A stretch of 37,384 nucleotides of DNA from the NCBI GenBank assembly GCA_903887275.1, contig CAISPD010000027.1, positions 1-37,384 on the forward strand, given 5' to 3'. The position numbers and the translations under genes are program-made. Shown here piece by piece: positions 8,353-34,500 of the stretch. The notes beneath the pieces were generated by a model. It made no database searches. It had not been told where the DNA came from and worked only from the letters and a program-made list of their open reading frames with translations. The DNA is from an uncultured Mucilaginibacter sp. (GTDB taxonomy: Bacteria > Bacteroidota > Bacteroidia > Sphingobacteriales > Sphingobacteriaceae). How positions within the stretch are numbered: the first letter of the stretch is position 1; each line of letters begins with the position of its first letter.

Positions 8353-8413
8353 CTTCGGCGAGGCTGGATCAGAAATAATCAATAAATTCGTCTCATCCAG
8401 GTTTAATTTGTAC

Positions 8414-10468
8414 ATGCATTTCCTTTTCCCATCTTTCCTTTTTGCATTGGTTGTGCTGGTTATACCCTTCATCATCCATCTGTTCAATTTCAGGAGGTAT
8501 CAAAAGGTTTATTTCAGTAATGTTCAGTTTTTAAAGCAAATACAAGAACAACAGGCTTCGCGCCGAAACCTGAAAGAACGACTCATCCTGTTGGCCCGGT
8601 TGTTAACACTTTTATTTCTGGTGCTGGCATTTGCAAGACCTTTTCTCCCCGGTAAAAATTCGGCTGCTACAGGCCGGCAGCAGGTAATAAGCGTTTTTGT
8701 CGATAATTCTTATTCGATGGAAGTTCTTAATCGTGAAGGTACTTTGCTTGATGAGGCTAAACGCCGTGCCAAAGAGATCGCTTCTGCCTACAGTATAAAT
8801 GATCGCTTTCAACTACTTACTCAGGATTTTGAAGGTAAACACCAGCGATTGCTAAGTCGTGATGAGTTTAATGATGCTGTCGATGCCGTAAAGATCAGCC
8901 CGCAAAGCCGGAACTTACAACAGATCGTTGATCGCCAGCAAAGCTTACTTTTGGAGCAGCAGGGAGCCTTGCGGACATCCTTTATACTTTCTGATTTTCA
9001 AAATAATATTGCAGGCCAGCATCCGGTAAAAGCCGATAGCACAGTACGATTCAACCTAATTCAGGTCAAATCAGGAATGCTGCCCAATATTGCCGTCGAC
9101 TCAGTATGGTTACTTTCTGCCGTTCATCGTAGTGGAGAAAGCGAAAAATTAGTTGTTAAACTACATAATTACGCCAGTCAGAAAGCTGATAAAGTGCCCA
9201 TGAAATTGCTGATCAACGGCGAGCAAAAAGCCCAGGGCAGTTATGCGATTGACCCGCATGCGGTGCAGTTGGATACATTGTCTTTTTCCGGCCTTTCACC
9301 AGGATGGCAGCGCGCAGAACTACAATTACAGGATAACCCGGTAACTTTCGATAACCAGTTTTATTTTACTTTCAACGTCAAGCAAAAGGAGCCTGTTTTA
9401 ATTATTAATGGTAGCAGCACCAATACTTTTCTGGATGCAGTGTTTAAAACCGATCCTTTTTTTGCTGCCAAAAGTATAGCTGATGGGAACGTGGACTATG
9501 CCGGGCTTGATAGTTTTCCGCTAATTGTACTATCAGATATTAAAGCCATTTCAACTGGCCTGTCTCAGCAATTAAAAGCCTATGTAGCTAAAGGGGGTTC
9601 ATTGGCTGTGTTTCCGGCAGAGGATGCTGACCTTGCGAATTATAAATCTTTTTTACAATCTGTTGATGCCGGTTGGCCATTACAACTGGTGCTTGAACCT
9701 TCAAGAGTAGCTGCTATAAACCTGCAAAGCGAAATATTTAAACGTATTTTCGAAAATTTCCCGCAAAATCCTGACCTGCCTGTTGTTTCCAAATATTATA
9801 AGCTTAGCGCTACGCCGCGTGGAGAAAATCTGATGGAGCTAGCTGGGAGGCAAGCATTCTGGTCGGCCTACGCCATCGGACGTGGAAAGGTATATGTTTC
9901 GGCTGTCCCATTATCCGATGGTTTCAGTAATCTGCAACGGCATGCACTTTTTGTGCCTGTCATGTTCAGAATAGCCTTATTGAGTGGCCACGATCAGCCT
10001 TTATGCTATACCTTAGGGCAGGATGATTACATTGCAGTTGCGCCATTTCAATCAGACGATAAACAAGTTTTGAAGTTAACTAAAGGAAACTTTTCACTGA
10101 TCCCCGACCTGCGTGATCAGCAGGGAGATGCCCGCTTATTCATTGGCGATCAGCTTCCGGAAGCGGGTAATTACGAATTGAAAAGACAGGACAGTACATT
10201 GGCTGTCGTAGCTTTTAATAATAGTCGCGCTGAGTCTGATATGAGCTACCTGTCACCCTCGGTTTTGCGAGCAGATTTCCCGCAGGCTGCCCCGGTTTTA
10301 CAGCCGGGTTCGGCATCAATAAGGGGCGATGTTGCTGATTTAAATTTGGGACTGCAATTATGGAAACTTTGTATAATTTTGGCATTGATATTTATAGGTG
10401 CGGAAATTTTGCTGGTACGATACTATCACCCTGGTAAACAGGTGTTTTCGCCAAATACAAATCGCTAA
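8414..10468 (+). CDS. BatA-like membrane protein with von Willebrand factor A domain
   Basis: A 684-residue inner-membrane protein. The N-terminus (HFLFPSFLFALVVLVIPFIIHLFNFRR, then LLARLLTLLFLVLAFARPFL) is the two-helix BatA-type domain found in Bacteroidota 'aerotolerance' and related proteins. It is followed by a vWA-like domain with a MIDAS-type DNSYS sequence (VFVDNSYSMEV) and a later region containing FILSDFQNN. A large extracytoplasmic part and a single C-terminal helix (LCIILALIFIGAEILLV) complete it. The frame opens at TTG 8408, but ATG at 8414 starts the membrane helix. Family members act with MoxR ATPases and other Bat proteins; none is in the window. It lies 26 bases upstream of the dihydroorotase-like gene, an arrangement I believe is common in this family of bacteria. 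Confidence 0.85.
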   Translation: MHFLFPSFLFALVVLVIPFIIHLFNFRRYQKVYFSNVQFLKQIQEQQASRRNLKERLILLARLLTLLFLVLAFARPFLPGKNSAATGRQQVISVFVDNSYSMEVLNREGTLLDEAKRRAKEIASAYSINDRFQLLTQDFEGKHQRLLSRDEFNDAVDAVKISPQSRNLQQIVDRQQSLLLEQQGALRTSFILSDFQNNIAGQHPVKADSTVRFNLIQVKSGMLPNIAVDSVWLLSAVHRSGESEKLVVKLHNYASQKADKVPMKLLINGEQKAQGSYAIDPHAVQLDTLSFSGLSPGWQRAELQLQDNPVTFDNQFYFTFNVKQKEPVLIINGSSTNTFLDAVFKTDPFFAAKSIADGNVDYAGLDSFPLIVLSDIKAISTGLSQQLKAYVAKGGSLAVFPAEDADLANYKSFLQSVDAGWPLQLVLEPSRVAAINLQSEIFKRIFENFPQNPDLPVVSKYYKLSATPRGENLMELAGRQAFWSAYAIGRGKVYVSAVPLSDGFSNLQRHALFVPVMFRIALLSGHDQPLCYTLGQDDYIAVAPFQSDDKQVLKLTKGNFSLIPDLRDQQGDARLFIGDQLPEAGNYELKRQDSTLAVVAFNNSRAESDMSYLSPSVLRADFPQAAPVLQPGSASIRGDVADLNLGLQLWKLCIILALIFIGAEILLVRYYHPGKQVFSPNTNR

Positions 10469-10494: not shown

Positions 10495-11748
10495 ATGAAT
10501 TTGCTTATCAAATCCGCGACCATCTCTGACCCGGGTTCACCCTTTGACCAACAAGTTGCTGATGTTTTGATCGAAAAAGGCCAGATCGTTATGATCGGCA
10601 AAGGGATCGATTCAGACGCTGAGATATTTGATGCCCGCGGGAAATACCTTTCACCGGGTTTTTTTGACCTCAATTGTAACATCGGCGAACTGGGCCTTGA
10701 AACTAAAGAAGACTTGAAAACCGGTACGCAAGCAGCAGCCGCAGGCGGGTTCACCGGTTTGGCATTAATGCCTAATACACAACCGCCGGCCCATTCTAAA
10801 TCAGAAATTGAGTATCTGGTTAATCGCGCCAAAAACAACCTGGTGGATATTTATCCTCTCGGTGCGATCTCTTATAAACGCGAGGGCAAGGATATGGCCG
10901 AAATGTACGATATGTACCAGCATGGGGCCAAAGCATTTAGTGATGGCAACCGTCCGGTGCAGGATGCAGGTTTGATGGAACGTGCATTGCTTTATACCAA
11001 AGGTTTTGATGCGCTGGTATTTTCGTACCCTGAGGACACCGCCATTGCCGGAAAAGCTAAGGTGCATGAAGGTGAAGTAAGCACTATATTGGGGATGAAA
11101 GGCATACCTGCACTTGCCGAAGAGTTGATGGTAGCCCGCGACCTATACCTGGCAGAATATACAGGCTCAAAAATTCACTTTACCACCATCTCTACCGAGC
11201 GGTCTGTATCGCTGATCAGGGAGGCCAGGAAGAAAGGCATACCAGTAACCTGCGATGTAGCGGTGCATCACTTGCTGTTGACTGATCAGGTGCTTTTAGG
11301 CTTCGACAGCCAATATAAAGTGAAACCACCCCTGCGTACCAAAAAAGATGTAAAAGCGCTGCTGGCTGGCTTAAAAGACGGGACAATAGACGCCATCACT
11401 TCACAGCATACACCACACGAGGTTGAATTTAAAGATGTTGAGTTTGAAGTTGCCGAGTACGGAATGATTAGCCTGCAAACAGCCTTTTCAATAGCTTTGG
11501 AAGCAGGCCTGACTATTGCTACTATCATTGAGAAACTGGCCATCAACCCACGTAAAATATTGGGTGTTGATCTGCCGGTTATAGCCGAGGGGAATCAAGC
11601 GAACCTGGTAGTATTTGATGATAAAGCTGAGTGGACATTTGATAAAGACAATAACCGTTCTAAATCTTATAATTCGCCGTTTATCGGGCATAAGCTAAAA
11701 GGCAGTATCCTGCTCACTATTAATAACAACCAGGTATTTAAACAATAG
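10495..11748 (+). CDS. Dihydroorotase homologue lacking metal ligands (probably non-catalytic PyrC-like protein)
   Basis: A 417-residue amidohydrolase-fold protein that aligns along its whole length with dihydroorotases, the third enzyme of pyrimidine synthesis: LSPGFFDLNCNIGE, AAAAGGFTGLALMPNT, IPALAEELMVARDL, PPLRTKKDVKALLAGLKDGTIDAI. Key metal and catalytic residues differ. The DxHxH pair is DLNCN (N60, N62), HAED is YPED, the HxxHxST histidine is T231, and TDHAPH is SQHTPH with Gln at 304. Such a protein should not bind the zinc centre. Inactive PyrC-like partners of aspartate carbamoyltransferase are known in other bacteria, so a structural or regulatory role is plausible. Annotating it simply as active pyrC would be unsafe. 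It is followed after 3 bases by an acidic unknown protein. Confidence 0.85.
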   Translation: MNLLIKSATISDPGSPFDQQVADVLIEKGQIVMIGKGIDSDAEIFDARGKYLSPGFFDLNCNIGELGLETKEDLKTGTQAAAAGGFTGLALMPNTQPPAHSKSEIEYLVNRAKNNLVDIYPLGAISYKREGKDMAEMYDMYQHGAKAFSDGNRPVQDAGLMERALLYTKGFDALVFSYPEDTAIAGKAKVHEGEVSTILGMKGIPALAEELMVARDLYLAEYTGSKIHFTTISTERSVSLIREARKKGIPVTCDVAVHHLLLTDQVLLGFDSQYKVKPPLRTKKDVKALLAGLKDGTIDAITSQHTPHEVEFKDVEFEVAEYGMISLQTAFSIALEAGLTIATIIEKLAINPRKILGVDLPVIAEGNQANLVVFDDKAEWTFDKDNNRSKSYNSPFIGHKLKGSILLTINNNQVFKQ

Positions 11749-11751
11749 ATC

Positions 11752-12420
11752 ATGATCGATATCAAGGTACAATCGGCAATACGGTCGGCATTGGAAGCAT
11801 ATTCGCAATACGAATACCCCGGTGCAAATGCCCTGGTGCTGAAATTTGTTGACGTTTTTTCGCTGAGCGATGATTTCCTTAAAAAGGTAGCGGCTTTGGA
11901 TAAAATATTTGACGATAACCCTGCTTTGGAAGAATTGCGGGAAGTATTCTTTGATCTCTTGCTGATTAATTTTTTTAGCGAAGATGTTAAAAAACTGGAT
12001 GATGACTACCTTGATAGCAAGGAATGGGAAAGGATAGAGGAACAAACGCTCGATCGCGGCACAGAACTGCTGAATACCTTGCTATACCTGAATGAATGTG
12101 CTGATGAGGACATTGAACCCGGACTTGACGACTACCTCAAAGAGTTTTTGCTGGTAGATGAGGATGAGTTTCAGGACGAGCACCGGATATATGAACCGGT
12201 AATTGTAAATCAGATATTAATTGAGAGTCCGGTTGCAGAAATAAGCAGGGTTTCCAAAATGCTTGCGGATGACGCCGAGATCAAAGAAATATTTTACCCC
12301 TTAATTTGCTTTTTTCAAAATACAAAACCATCAGCCAATGATAAAACTGAAATAGCAAAAAATGCGATCAATGCAGGCTTTGATCTGGCAGTAATTGGTA
12401 TATTAGAGTCGTTTATTTAA
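11752..12420 (+). CDS. Acidic helical protein of unknown function
   Basis: A 222-residue protein I do not recognise. It has no signal peptide or membrane helix and looks fully helical and cytoplasmic. It is strongly acidic in the middle (LNECADEDIEPGLDDYLKEFLLVDEDEFQDE). The ATG lies 3 bases after the stop codon of the dihydroorotase-like gene, so the two are almost certainly co-transcribed and perhaps coupled in translation. A DUF4199 gene follows after 17 bases. The tight coupling suggests a link to the PyrC-like protein, but nothing in the sequence shows what it does. Confidence 0.8.
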   Translation: MIDIKVQSAIRSALEAYSQYEYPGANALVLKFVDVFSLSDDFLKKVAALDKIFDDNPALEELREVFFDLLLINFFSEDVKKLDDDYLDSKEWERIEEQTLDRGTELLNTLLYLNECADEDIEPGLDDYLKEFLLVDEDEFQDEHRIYEPVIVNQILIESPVAEISRVSKMLADDAEIKEIFYPLICFFQNTKPSANDKTEIAKNAINAGFDLAVIGILESFI

Positions 12421-12437
12421 ACCTAACACACAATTAT

Positions 12438-12977
12438 ATGGCAACAACAATAAATCCGACAAAAATAGCCACCAAATGGGCTTTGATCAATCTGCTAGCG
12501 GGTATAATTATGACCTATGCATTTGAATATCTGGTTCCCGATTCTAATTCTCCAATCAGGTATATTACCTTGATACCTTTCATTGCGTTTCTTTTATTAG
12601 CTCAGAAAGAGTTTAGAGATCAAAATGAGGGATTCCTCACTTTTAGCGAAGGATTTTCCGTTGGATTTAGATTTGCTGTATTTTCGGGCTTACTTTCCGC
12701 TATTTTTATCTATTTGTACCTGGCTATTTTAAGCCCCGATGTTATGGTGAAAGCTGCTGAGGATGCTCGGGCACAAATGGAGGCTAAGGGCGGGTTGTCG
12801 AGTGAGCAAATAGATAATGCAGTTTCACTTACAAAAAAACTGGGCCCTGTTTTTGGTGCGTTTGGTGCAGCGATATTCGATGCGATAGTCGGTTCGTTAG
12901 CAGCGTTAGTGGGTGCATCTATCTTTAAGAAAATTAAACCAATAGATTTCGCAGAAACACCAGATCCAACAGTCTGA
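12438..12977 (+). CDS. DUF4199 family membrane protein
   Basis: A 179-residue integral membrane protein with about four hydrophobic segments: KWALINLLAGIIMTYAFEYLV, YITLIPFIAFLLLA, AVFSGLLSAIFIYLYLAI, and a Gly/Ala-rich last helix AFGAAIFDAIVGSLAALVGASIF. The pattern of QKEFRDQNEGFLTFSEGFSVGF between helices 2 and 3 is typical of the DUF4199 family, which is widespread in Bacteroidota and has no known function. It is the last gene of the + strand run and is closed by a strong terminator shared with rseP on the opposite strand. Confidence 0.85.
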   Translation: MATTINPTKIATKWALINLLAGIIMTYAFEYLVPDSNSPIRYITLIPFIAFLLLAQKEFRDQNEGFLTFSEGFSVGFRFAVFSGLLSAIFIYLYLAILSPDVMVKAAEDARAQMEAKGGLSSEQIDNAVSLTKKLGPVFGAFGAAIFDAIVGSLAALVGASIFKKIKPIDFAETPDPTV

Positions 12978-15730: not shown

Positions 15731-17236
15731 TTAATCAATATATCTTTGCAATTCTTCAGCAATCTTCCTATCATTCGATAATCGCGGAACTTTATTCTGA
15801 CCACCTAATTTCCCTTGAGTTCGCATATAATTGATGAAAGCGTCTTTTTGCAGATTACGGACGATCAAAGGTTGTAAAATGTTCCCTTCTATCAGGTCAA
15901 AATAGTAAATATTTTTCTTTTGCAGGGCCAGGTCCACTTTTAAAGCAAACGCCGTAAAGTCTACCGGCTTTTTGCCGAACTCGATGAACCATTCGTGGTA
16001 GGGTAATTGGCCTTTAGGTGGTGTAACCTGAGGCGCTACTGTAAACTCGATAATATCTACTCCTTCTTCATTAGCTACACCCATTAAGGCTTGTTCAACT
16101 TCTTCGCCAATAACGTGTTCGCCAAAAGCGGAGATATAATGTTTAATGCGACCGGTTACCAGGATCTTGTATGGATTTTTCGATACAAATTTGATGGTGT
16201 CGCCGATACTGTATCCCCAAAGGCCAGCGCTTGTATTCAAAACCAGCGCGTAATTTTTATCGAGTTCTACCTGTTCTAAATTTAGCCGCGTGGGTTGCTC
16301 ATTGAAGAACTCCCCGGCAGGAATAAATTCATAGAAAATTCCCGCGTCAGTTAATAAAAGCAGACTTTTGTCCTTTTGCGAATCCTGAAAAGCGATAAAA
16401 CCTTCGGAAGCAGGGTAGGTCTCTACCGAATTGATAGCGAAGCCGATACTTTCTTCAATGCGTGCCCTGTAAGGTTCATAATTTACCCCACCATAAACAA
16501 AAAGCTTAAAGTTGGGGAATATGTCTTTGATCTTTTTACCGCCGGTTTTGGCACTCAGCCTATCGAAATACATCTGGCACCAGGGAGGTATGCCCGAGAT
16601 CAGTGTCATGTCCTGTGACAAAGTTTCGTCCACGATGGCGTCAACTTTTTGCTCCCAGTCTTCGATGCAATTGATCTGATAGCTGGGCAAGCGGTTCTTT
16701 TGCAGGTATTTGGGCACCAGATTGGCTACGATACCCGAAAGCCTGCCTACTGATATGCCGGCTTTCTGCTGTAGAACGGGACTACCCTGGAGAAATATCA
16801 TTTTGCCATTGACAAAATCTGATCGGCCTGTTTCGTGAATATAGTTGAGCAGCGCATTACGTGCAGCACGGATATGTTCCGGCATGCTTTCCTTGCTGAT
16901 GGGGATATACTTTACGCCTGATGTTGTTCCGGATGTTTTAGCCAGGTACTCAGGTTTGCCGGGCCACAGGATGTCTTCTTCGCCCGCGGTTACGCGGTCG
17001 ATATAGGGTTTAAGGTCTTCATAATCCCGAACCGGCACCAGCTTTTTAAAGTCGTGGTAAGTTTTGATCGCTTCAAAATGATGGTCGATGCCAAAAGCGG
17101 TATTCTGAGCCTTTTTTAGGAGGTACTGGAAAGTTTGATTTTGCAGTTCGACCGACTTTGAGCGGATACGGTTGATCTCCCTGCTTGTCCATGCGGCAAA
17201 TACCCGGCTCAGTACAGCTTTCAGACCCATGATCAT
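15731..17236 (-). CDS. GH3-family acyl-adenylating protein (plant GH3/JAR1-like)
   Basis: A 501-residue member of the GH3 family of adenylate-forming enzymes. Plant members join hormones to amino acids through an acyl-AMP step; bacterial members are common in Bacteroidota, and their substrates are mostly unknown. The nucleotide-binding motif LAKTSGTTSGVKYIPIS starts near residue 98. The other conserved blocks follow: FVYGGVNYEPYRARIE, ETYPASEGFIAFQ, and the C-terminal hinge VTGRIKHYISAFGEHVIGEEVE. The stop codon of the upstream membrane-protein gene overlaps this start in ATGA form (17233-17236), so the two are coupled; a second ATG six bases downstream is an alternative start. Fatty-acyl or aryl substrates are possible, but this is inference. 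Confidence 0.9.
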   Translation of the reverse strand: MIMGLKAVLSRVFAAWTSREINRIRSKSVELQNQTFQYLLKKAQNTAFGIDHHFEAIKTYHDFKKLVPVRDYEDLKPYIDRVTAGEEDILWPGKPEYLAKTSGTTSGVKYIPISKESMPEHIRAARNALLNYIHETGRSDFVNGKMIFLQGSPVLQQKAGISVGRLSGIVANLVPKYLQKNRLPSYQINCIEDWEQKVDAIVDETLSQDMTLISGIPPWCQMYFDRLSAKTGGKKIKDIFPNFKLFVYGGVNYEPYRARIEESIGFAINSVETYPASEGFIAFQDSQKDKSLLLLTDAGIFYEFIPAGEFFNEQPTRLNLEQVELDKNYALVLNTSAGLWGYSIGDTIKFVSKNPYKILVTGRIKHYISAFGEHVIGEEVEQALMGVANEEGVDIIEFTVAPQVTPPKGQLPYHEWFIEFGKKPVDFTAFALKVDLALQKKNIYYFDLIEGNILQPLIVRNLQKDAFINYMRTQGKLGGQNKVPRLSNDRKIAEELQRYID

Positions 17237-32037: not shown

Positions 32038-34500
32038 ATGCAAAGTAAAGGCTACCTTGTTTCAGCGATCAAAACTATTATTGGTGCGGAAGGTGTTATT
32101 GAACAGGATCAATTGATCAGCACCCTGCTAACCGATAGCAGGCGAATCACCAATGCATCGGGGTCGCTGTTCTTTGCACTTAGCGGACGTAGAAACGGCC
32201 ACGAATTTATTGCTGAGGCGTATGCCGCCGGTGTCCGTAATTTTATAGTGACCCGCCATTCGGGGACAAATTTGCAGGGAGCCAATTTTTTGTTGGTCGA
32301 TGATGTACTGGCTGCATTGCAGCATTTATCGGCATACCACCGTAGTCGCTTTAACCTGGAGGTGATCGGCATTACGGGCAGTAACGGTAAAACTATCGTC
32401 AAAGAATGGCTTTTCCAGCTGATCGGAGCCGATCAGCATATAGTCCGTAATCCAAAAAGCTATAATTCACAAATAGGTGGGCCGCTTTCGGTTTGGCAGA
32501 TTGATGAAAACGATACCCTTGGTATTTTTGAAGCTGGTATTTCCACGGTAAACGAAATGGAAAAACTGGAATCCATCATCCAGCCAACTATTGGTATTTT
32601 AACCCATATTGGTCCGGCACATGATGAGGGATTTGCAAGCCGTAGACAAAAGATCGAAGAAAAGCTTAAATTATTTAAGCATGTAAGACTGCTGATCTAT
32701 CAATTTGATCTGCTGGTTGAACATCAGGATAAAAACTACGCCGGGAAGCACTTTACCTGGAGCCGGAATTTTAAAGAAGCAGATCTGTTCATCAAATCAG
32801 CAACGGCAGAAGTTAGTCATTACCGGCTTCGTGCAAGCTACAATGCTGACGAGATAGAATGCCTGGTGCCTTTTACTGATGAAGCTTCCGTTGAAAATGC
32901 CATTACTTGCTGGGCCACGTTATTGGCGATGGGGTATAAGCCTCTGGAAGCAGGTATACGCATGGCAAGGCTGAATCCGGTAAGCATGCGCCTGGAACTT
33001 AAAACCGGCATCAACAACTGTTCTGTGATCGACGACTCGTACAACTCTGATGTTCAATCGCTTGAAATAGCCCTTAATTTTCTAAACCAGCAGAACCAGC
33101 ACCCTAGACGAACGATCATCCTTTCAGATATCTTCGAAACCGGCTTACAACAGGAGGAATTGTACAGACAGGTAGCTGCACTTGTTAGCGATAAGGGTGT
33201 AGATAAGTTTATTGGTGTTGGAGCTTCATTGGCTTATTACCAGTCGTTTTTTAGAGTGGCCGAACAATACTTTTATACCGATACCCAAACATTGCTGCGT
33301 TATTTACCTTCGCTGAAATTAAATGATGAAACGATTTTGATCAAGGGTTCGCGCAGTTTTGAATTTGAACGGATCAGCCAGGCATTGGCCCAAAAGGCGC
33401 ACGAAACCGTAATGGAAATAAGCCTCGACAAATTGCTGCAAAACCTGAATTATTTTCGCGGCAGGTTAAATCCGGGGGTGAAAGTAATGGCGATGGTAAA
33501 GGCTTTCTCCTATGGCAGCGGAACCTTTGAGGTTGCAAATATCTTGCAGTATAATAAAGTAGATTACCTGGCAGTAGCCTATATTGACGAAGGCGTTGCG
33601 CTGCGGCAGGCAGGCATTTCTCTGCCCATCATGGTGCTCAACCCCGAAATATCTGCTTTTGATAAACTGGTTGAATTTGAACTGGAGCCCGAAATATTCA
33701 GCTTTAATTTGCTTGATGAGTTTGAAAAGTATGCCCGCAAACAGGGTATCAGCGAGTATCCGGTTCATATTAAAATTGATACGGGTATGCACCGCCTCGG
33801 TTTCGAGGATCCGGATATCGATCAGCTTTGTGATCGACTCAATAAAAATTCTTACATCAGGGTGCGCTCCGTGTTTTCGCATCTGGTAGCGAGCGATGCA
33901 CAGGAGCACGATGAATTTACGAAGTTACAGATCGAACGTTTTGAACGTGCTTTCACGTTGATTGAAAAGGCTTTAGGTTATTCGGTCATTAAACATTTAG
34001 ATAATACATCAGGTATTACCCGCTGGCCACAGGCACAATATGATATGGTGCGGCTTGGTATAGGTTTGTATGGGATTGATTCGGCCGCCAAAGCTGGTTC
34101 AAATGGCTTACAGCCGATAGCTACTTTAAAAACAAGTGTTTCGCAGGTTCGGGAAATTGAAGCGGGAGACACAATTGGTTACAATCGTAAGGGTGCATTG
34201 CGTAAAGCCGGCAAAATAGCTACTGTACGCATTGGTTATGCCGATGGTTATTTACGGGCTTTTGGCAACGGTGTGGGCAAAATGCTGGTCAATGGGCGGC
34301 TTGCGCCAACGGTTGGCAATATTTCCATGGATATGTGTACCCTGGATGTAAGTGGTGTTGAAGTTAAAGAAGGAGACGAGGTGATTGTTTTTAACGACAA
34401 ATTGCCAATAGAAGAGCTTGCGCGGCAAATAGGCACTATTCCCTACGAAATACTCACCAATGTTTCGCAACGCGTAAAAAGAGTGTATTTTTACGAATAA
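32038..34500 (+). CDS. murF-alr: Bifunctional UDP-MurNAc-tripeptide:D-Ala-D-Ala ligase / alanine racemase
   Basis: An 820-residue fusion typical of Bacteroidota. Residues 1-455 are MurF, which adds D-Ala-D-Ala to the peptidoglycan precursor: the ATP loop GITGSNGKT (G111-T119), KSYNSQIGGPLSVWQ and IDDSYNSDVQSLE. From M459 to the end is a PLP-dependent alanine racemase with the lysine K488 in AMVKAFSYGSG and the catalytic tyrosine Y734 in RIGYADGYLRAFG. Another family motif is IKIDTGMHRLGF. The fusion joins D-alanine supply to its use in the cytoplasm. The start is the first ATG. A DUF502 gene follows after 12 bases. Confidence 0.97.
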   Translation: MQSKGYLVSAIKTIIGAEGVIEQDQLISTLLTDSRRITNASGSLFFALSGRRNGHEFIAEAYAAGVRNFIVTRHSGTNLQGANFLLVDDVLAALQHLSAYHRSRFNLEVIGITGSNGKTIVKEWLFQLIGADQHIVRNPKSYNSQIGGPLSVWQIDENDTLGIFEAGISTVNEMEKLESIIQPTIGILTHIGPAHDEGFASRRQKIEEKLKLFKHVRLLIYQFDLLVEHQDKNYAGKHFTWSRNFKEADLFIKSATAEVSHYRLRASYNADEIECLVPFTDEASVENAITCWATLLAMGYKPLEAGIRMARLNPVSMRLELKTGINNCSVIDDSYNSDVQSLEIALNFLNQQNQHPRRTIILSDIFETGLQQEELYRQVAALVSDKGVDKFIGVGASLAYYQSFFRVAEQYFYTDTQTLLRYLPSLKLNDETILIKGSRSFEFERISQALAQKAHETVMEISLDKLLQNLNYFRGRLNPGVKVMAMVKAFSYGSGTFEVANILQYNKVDYLAVAYIDEGVALRQAGISLPIMVLNPEISAFDKLVEFELEPEIFSFNLLDEFEKYARKQGISEYPVHIKIDTGMHRLGFEDPDIDQLCDRLNKNSYIRVRSVFSHLVASDAQEHDEFTKLQIERFERAFTLIEKALGYSVIKHLDNTSGITRWPQAQYDMVRLGIGLYGIDSAAKAGSNGLQPIATLKTSVSQVREIEAGDTIGYNRKGALRKAGKIATVRIGYADGYLRAFGNGVGKMLVNGRLAPTVGNISMDMCTLDVSGVEVKEGDEVIVFNDKLPIEELARQIGTIPYEILTNVSQRVKRVYFYE

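Follow-up and report, generated by a model that had tools for sequence, protein, structure and literature searches.

A pseudo-dihydroorotase widespread in one class of Bacteroidota and encoded apart from pyrB is a very probable subunit of class A2 aspartate transcarbamoylase

In the class A2 aspartate transcarbamoylases (ATCases) of Pseudomonas aeruginosa and P. putida, a 45-kDa inactive dihydroorotase (DHO) homologue, the pseudo-dihydroorotase (pDHO) or PyrC', assembles with an active ATCase chain; in P. aeruginosa this chain is an inactive monomer on its own, and full activity is reached with the inactive pDHO in a dodecamer (excerpts of PMC7053772). In Sinorhizobium meliloti, disruption of a gene next to pyrB that is annotated as dihydroorotase (smc01361) caused pyrimidine auxotrophy, and the authors proposed that its product, PyrX, is an inactive subunit needed by PyrB, the essential PyrC being encoded elsewhere (excerpts of PMC5929573). 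The type I DHO of Aquifex aeolicus (PDB 3d6n), which forms the class A1 DHO-ATC complex with ATC, is an active enzyme within this assembly and has all six metal and catalytic residues, namely the zinc ligands H61, H63 and D153, the second-site residues H180 and H232, and D305 (excerpts of PMC3880350). A DHO-like domain of a fungal CAD-like protein (5nnl) is non-catalytic and tied to ATCase as part of a fused multifunctional protein (excerpts of PMC7053772).

The DNA analysed here, hereafter the window, is a stretch of 37,384 nucleotides from an uncultured Mucilaginibacter sp. (contig CAISPD010000027.1 of assembly GCA_903887275.1), and carries a gene for a DHO homologue (Table 1). Compared by description rather than by sequence, this protein resembles the Pseudomonas pDHO, including the presence of other PyrC paralogues in the genome (excerpts of PMC2770081 for Pseudomonas), as well as S. 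meliloti PyrX, but it occurs in Bacteroidota and, unlike both, its gene is not adjacent to pyrB. It differs from the Aquifex DHO in lacking all six residues and from the fungal domain, to which its similarity is far weaker (E 6.8e-7), in standing alone. An Azospirillum homologue (L303) has R-L-G-H-H-D at the six positions, keeping three of them, and shares the replacement of R65 by Gly, but its gene overlaps pyrB, unlike the window gene. The location of a pDHO gene beside pyrB is usual in class A2 and is not a defining feature. We consider it very probable, by analogy with these systems, that the window gene encodes a non-catalytic DHO-like subunit of a class A2 ATCase, corresponding to PyrX or PyrC' elsewhere.

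Table 1. Features of the pDHO locus in window coordinates, with the residues of Aquifex DHO that are replaced
Feature	Position	Strand	Remarks
pDHO gene	10495..11748	+	417 aa; homologous to type I DHO, metal site lost
N60-C61-N62 codons	10672..10680	+	replace zinc-binding HxH (Aquifex H61, H63)
G64 codon	10684..10686	+	replaces Aquifex R65, an Arg in all 19 intact DHOs examined
G151 codon	10945..10947	+	replaces Aquifex D153, zinc ligand
Y178 codon	11026..11028	+	replaces Aquifex H180
T231 codon	11185..11187	+	replaces Aquifex H232
Q304 codon	11404..11406	+	replaces Aquifex D305
Acidic all-helical 222-aa protein	11752..12420	+	no Pfam family; computed pI 4.11; pDHO-linked only in own family
BatA-like protein	8408..10468	+	N-terminal PF07584; 26 bases ahead of pDHO
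DUF4199 protein	12438..12977	+	downstream, same direction as pDHO

A preliminary description made from the window alone had regarded the protein as a full-length DHO homologue that had lost its metal site. The homology was borne out by a match to TIGR00857 (score 359 bits, cut-off 279) and by the best match among PDB sequences, the Aquifex DHO (3d6n_A), which covered residues 2-413 with E 1.4e-86. The same structure was the top PDB match of the predicted pDHO structure; the barrel is poorly modelled (mean pLDDT 65.8), and the support from this model is weak. The ORF matched amidohydrolase and DHO families only, with no CAD- or Ura2-type fusion to carbamoyl phosphate synthetase and ATCase. Mapping onto the numbered residues of Aquifex DHO showed directly that all six metal and catalytic residues have been replaced: the positions expected of an active type I DHO (HxH, Asp153, H180, H232 and D305) read N, N, G, Y, T and Q. 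Five of these replacements had been listed before; the sixth, at D153, had gone unmentioned. D150 of pDHO aligns with D152 of Aquifex DHO, which is no ligand. Outside the six, R65 is also replaced (Table 1). N60, T231 and Q304 were invariant in an alignment of 40 sequences (the window protein and 39 chosen from 80 close orthologues), and so the changes are not due to chance. The original observation is thus confirmed and is stronger than first stated: judged from these residues, zinc binding and turnover have probably been lost and the full-length homology retained.

Loss of the site extends beyond close relatives. Among the 47 orthologues examined, which cover eight families in the taxonomic class of the window genome, none of the six residues was kept in 13, one in 31 and two in 3, whereas other DHO homologues of the phylum kept all six in 19 of 19 cases; G006 of family f13, counted apart from these 19, kept none. 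R65, E182, E255, H309 and E313, which are conserved in intact DHOs, are likewise eroded in pDHOs, and other stretches, e.g. around residues 192-216, remain conserved. The loss of every catalytic ligand is also what would be seen if an old pyrC were decaying as a pseudogene, an explanation that is hardly credible given the state of the gene. An ORF of at least 416 codons was found at all 80 close loci, dN (0.04-0.12) was far below dS (1.3-2.4, near saturation) in five pairs of close relatives, with dS saturated in a sixth pair, and the gene is retained in most genomes of the class (see below). Selective maintenance is therefore directly visible, and pDHO is under strong purifying selection. Two different pDHO loci (L034 and L066), 93% and 74% identical to that of the window, are both attributed to one MAG, bin-0192, a bin that is therefore probably mixed.

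A gene under selection could also encode an enzyme that still acts on dihydroorotate or another substrate through an altered or metal-free site. Loss of the zinc residues does not by itself prove inactivity, because a Pseudomonas PyrC paralogue without the conserved zinc residues is cited as active (excerpts of PMC2770081), and the invariance of N60, T231 and Q304 among close orthologues would suit a remodelled site. However, the residues at the six positions differ from family to family (e.g. S-S-Y-F-T-D, F-H-G-L-G-H and R-S-G-R-T-D), which speaks against a new common catalytic site, and the five further positions named above are eroded as well, with no new common site visible. We therefore regard retained catalysis as very unlikely.

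If pDHO is a non-catalytic subunit, a separate PyrC would supply the DHO activity. A second homologue, 30% identical to pDHO, is encoded in the window genome at G000:C122 (L002:1423-2757); it exceeds the cut-off of the dihydroorotase equivalog NF006688 (732 against 535 bits), and its nearest solved dihydroorotase is 2gwn (E 1.8e-162). The second pyrC that the preliminary description had suggested looking for was thus found as a member of an annotated dihydroorotase family, though its site is not intact in the expected form: its Arg, Lys and Asp are retained, as are three His residues, but the first His of HxH is Gln (QxH), as in 2gwn. PyrC was read in 46 of 47 pDHO genomes (G253 was left out, as the region fetched held only a 27% identical amidohydrolase), and 45 of the 46 had QxH; G091 has His, and G115 differs at the aligned Lys. 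The Gln was also present in two genomes read of family f3, in which the search with the pDHO protein, a search that type II PyrC lies outside, found no other homologue, and hence the Gln probably does not abolish activity. With QxH in 45 of 46 genomes, this PyrC is a candidate for the protein that makes dihydroorotate.

The distribution of pDHO was compared with that of PyrB and PyrI. The window protein served as query against 395 genomes sampled from the phylum, 98 of which belong to the class of the window genome. With carriers taken as genomes with a match below E 1e-75 (G072 was left out, its match being an intact DHO), pDHO was present in 82 of the 98. All 98 class genomes were searched for PyrB, and a PyrB matching that of the window genome at E 6.7e-134 or better was observed in 82 of 82 pDHO genomes and in none of the 16 others (Fisher p 1e-18, a descriptive value only, as the genomes are related). 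The 82 and the 16 are not independent events, and the informative switches are few (families f3, f9 and f11/f12). The genomes without pDHO comprised eight of f3, which carry a distant PyrB (about 41-46% identity), five of f11 and f12, which carry PyrI with a different PyrB, G072, in which pyrB adjoins the intact DHO gene, and two of f9. These two f9 genomes (G166 and G387) were without both PyrB and pDHO. At G220:C1:186612-187422, PyrB matched in two overlapping pieces, possibly owing to a frameshift.

In the PyrB tree, the 47 PyrBs from pDHO genomes formed one clade (99/99), the four tested f3 PyrBs joined that of B. subtilis (100/99), and the four tested from PyrI genomes of f11/f12 joined that of E. 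coli (100/100). The PyrB of the window genome, encoded on contig C157, belongs to neither the E. coli-type (PyrI) nor the B. subtilis-type group. PyrI was absent from the window genome and from 82 of 82 pDHO genomes searched, and is rare in the phylum sample (7 of 395 genomes in all). In the order of G230, probably Bacteroidales, 110 of 119 genomes have PyrI, and the best match to the window pDHO did not go beyond E 4.2e-61; this match, in G505, has intact HxH, HxS and TDHAPH motifs. G505, a genome of this PyrI-rich order without a PyrI match, thus carries an intact type I DHO (G505:C6:34406-35590), perhaps of a class A1 pair. G196, from outside the class of the window genome, has PyrI, an E. 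coli-like PyrB and an unlinked intact DHO, which leaves the rule for pDHO unbroken. Judging from gene content, pDHO, PyrI and unaccompanied PyrB replace one another, each along with the matching catalytic subunit. The role first suggested for the protein, an inactive PyrC-like subunit of ATCase, is consequently backed by strong comparative evidence from the PyrB lineage, the PyrB tree and the exclusion of PyrI, and is read by analogy with the described complexes.

The pDHO gene is on contig C27 of the window genome and pyrB on C157, and in none of the 47 class assemblies did the two genes lie side by side, which tells against the subunit reading. Upstream of pyrB in the window genome (L116:2549-3521, minus strand) lie a gene for a phosphoribosyltransferase (PF00156), presumably PyrR, and a 111-residue ORF with a sub-threshold match to a 23S rRNA intervening-sequence protein. 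In other classes, pyrB and the gene for a close DHO homologue were adjacent in 5 of 19 sampled genomes and apart in 14 as assembled. An intact DHO gene directly follows pyrB in four genomes of other classes (G014, G019, G093 and G004) and in G072, and in all four f13 genomes pyrB overlaps by 4 bases a gene for a DHO homologue that keeps none or one of the six ligands. A close relative of the G072 DHO is encoded beside pyrB on a plasmid of Hymenobacter canadensis (L304). A plausible history is that of a pyrB-pyrC pair in which the DHO lost catalysis, the gene in the class of the window genome having also moved away from pyrB.

A single origin of all pDHOs was considered and found less likely. 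In the tree from all columns, the pDHOs of the class of the window genome, of f13 and of Azospirillum fell on one side and the active DHOs on the other (95/97). After removal of the active-site columns this grouping vanished, and the starred branches force at least two changes: f13 joined the active DHO of Hymenobacter (96/98), the Azospirillum protein joined the DHO of Collinsella (92/83), outside the Bacteroidota pDHO group, and the pDHOs of the class of the window genome were still together (92/91). A larger tree also placed the f13 protein of G006 with that of G072. The grouping in the all-column tree probably reflects convergence; the PyrB tree gave three changes for the A2 rows, with one forced by starred branches. 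As the pDHOs are ungrouped without the active-site columns, we lean to the view that DHO catalysis was lost more than once with the fold kept.

Separation from pyrB leaves pDHO among other genes. The order in the window is a GH20 hexosaminidase, an ORF with a weak PliI match, the BatA-like protein, pDHO, the acidic ORF and DUF4199, followed on the other strand by an M50 peptidase (RseP-like) and Dxr. Elsewhere in the window, a GH3-family protein with all three GH3 domains by Pfam is encoded at 15731-17236 (minus strand), a family linked to plant hormone conjugation, and Mur ligase domains are fused with alanine racemase in one ORF at 32038-34500 (plus strand). The acidic 222-residue ORF begins 3 bases downstream of pDHO, as first described. 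In its own family it follows pDHO in all 7 genomes sampled (84 bases off in one), and it does so at 77 of 80 close loci, within 12 bases or overlapping at 73 and at 97-657 bases at four; the three loci without it have less than 500 bases of downstream sequence. Its predicted structure is all-helical and confident (pLDDT 91.5), with no PDB match at E of 0.001 or below; Pfam searches with 39 members yielded nothing beyond isolated weak hits in individual sequences, and its profile gave two hits among PDB sequences, with E 0.09 and 0.49. The BatA-like gene lies upstream at 26 of 47 pDHO loci, the window included; it overlaps pDHO by 4 bases at several f4 loci, and occurs across several families.

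Such an arrangement could mean that pDHO acts for the proteins encoded in its own operon (the BatA-like, DUF4199 and acidic proteins) instead of for PyrB, and BatA-like matches were indeed commoner with pDHO than without, among the genomes searched. Their fit is nevertheless far worse than that of the PyrB lineage, which separates the 82 from the 16 completely: of 36 pDHO genomes searched, a strong match was present in 24, a weak one in 3 and no match in 9, and 7 of the 32 class genomes that lack pDHO had a strong one, so that BatA-like occurrence follows pDHO loosely. The acidic-protein profile, for its part, had no match at 40 pDHO loci of seven other families (E 0.1). The acidic protein, which had been put forward as a natural partner, therefore cannot be a general one and is not required for pDHO in general, though it may be a lineage-specific partner. 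Taken together, service to its own operon in place of PyrB is distinctly unlikely. A wider scheme combines several of these elements: the ATCase scaffold slot in Bacteroidota would be swapped among pDHO, PyrI and none together with the catalytic subunit, pDHO, off the pyr operon, would have gained a second duty linking pyrimidine synthesis to the BatA-like/DUF4199 operon, and the acidic all-helical protein of its own family would be a lineage-specific regulator bound to ATCase-pDHO. We regard this scheme as unlikely in its entirety.

The preferred reading remains that of a class A2 ATCase subunit. By analogy with the Aquifex DHO-ATC complex, whose structure is solved, and the Pseudomonas ATCase-pDHO complex, which has been reconstituted, pDHO dimers would clamp two PyrB trimers into a dodecamer, in which PyrB would be assembled, stabilised and active. 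The barrel of pDHO would no longer bind zinc or turn over substrate. We infer this assembly, the inactivity and the dependence of PyrB on pDHO from the described complexes.

The expectation that the gene would be mis-annotated as active pyrC proved correct for an orthologue of Rufibacter, which has broken ligands and is annotated 'dihydroorotase'. This orthologue (L302), with S-F-G-R-Q-G at the six positions, is encoded on plasmid 2 of Rufibacter tibetensis (12.5 kb), beside a BatA-like ORF, two DUF4199 genes and glycosyltransferase genes. No description of a pDHO in Bacteroidota was found in the open-licence literature among the matches listed, and an earlier description is possible. The best reading of the sequence comparisons is that the widespread pDHO of Bacteroidota would represent a known kind of ATCase assembly, unlinked from pyrB. 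If this is true, a gene present in 82 of 98 genomes of the class is misread as an active dihydroorotase, and metabolic models and essentiality calls are distorted as a result. The mutual exclusion of pDHO, PyrI and unaccompanied PyrB would then provide, inside a single phylum, a natural series of quaternary ATCase types in which the exchange of an enzyme's scaffold can be put to the test.
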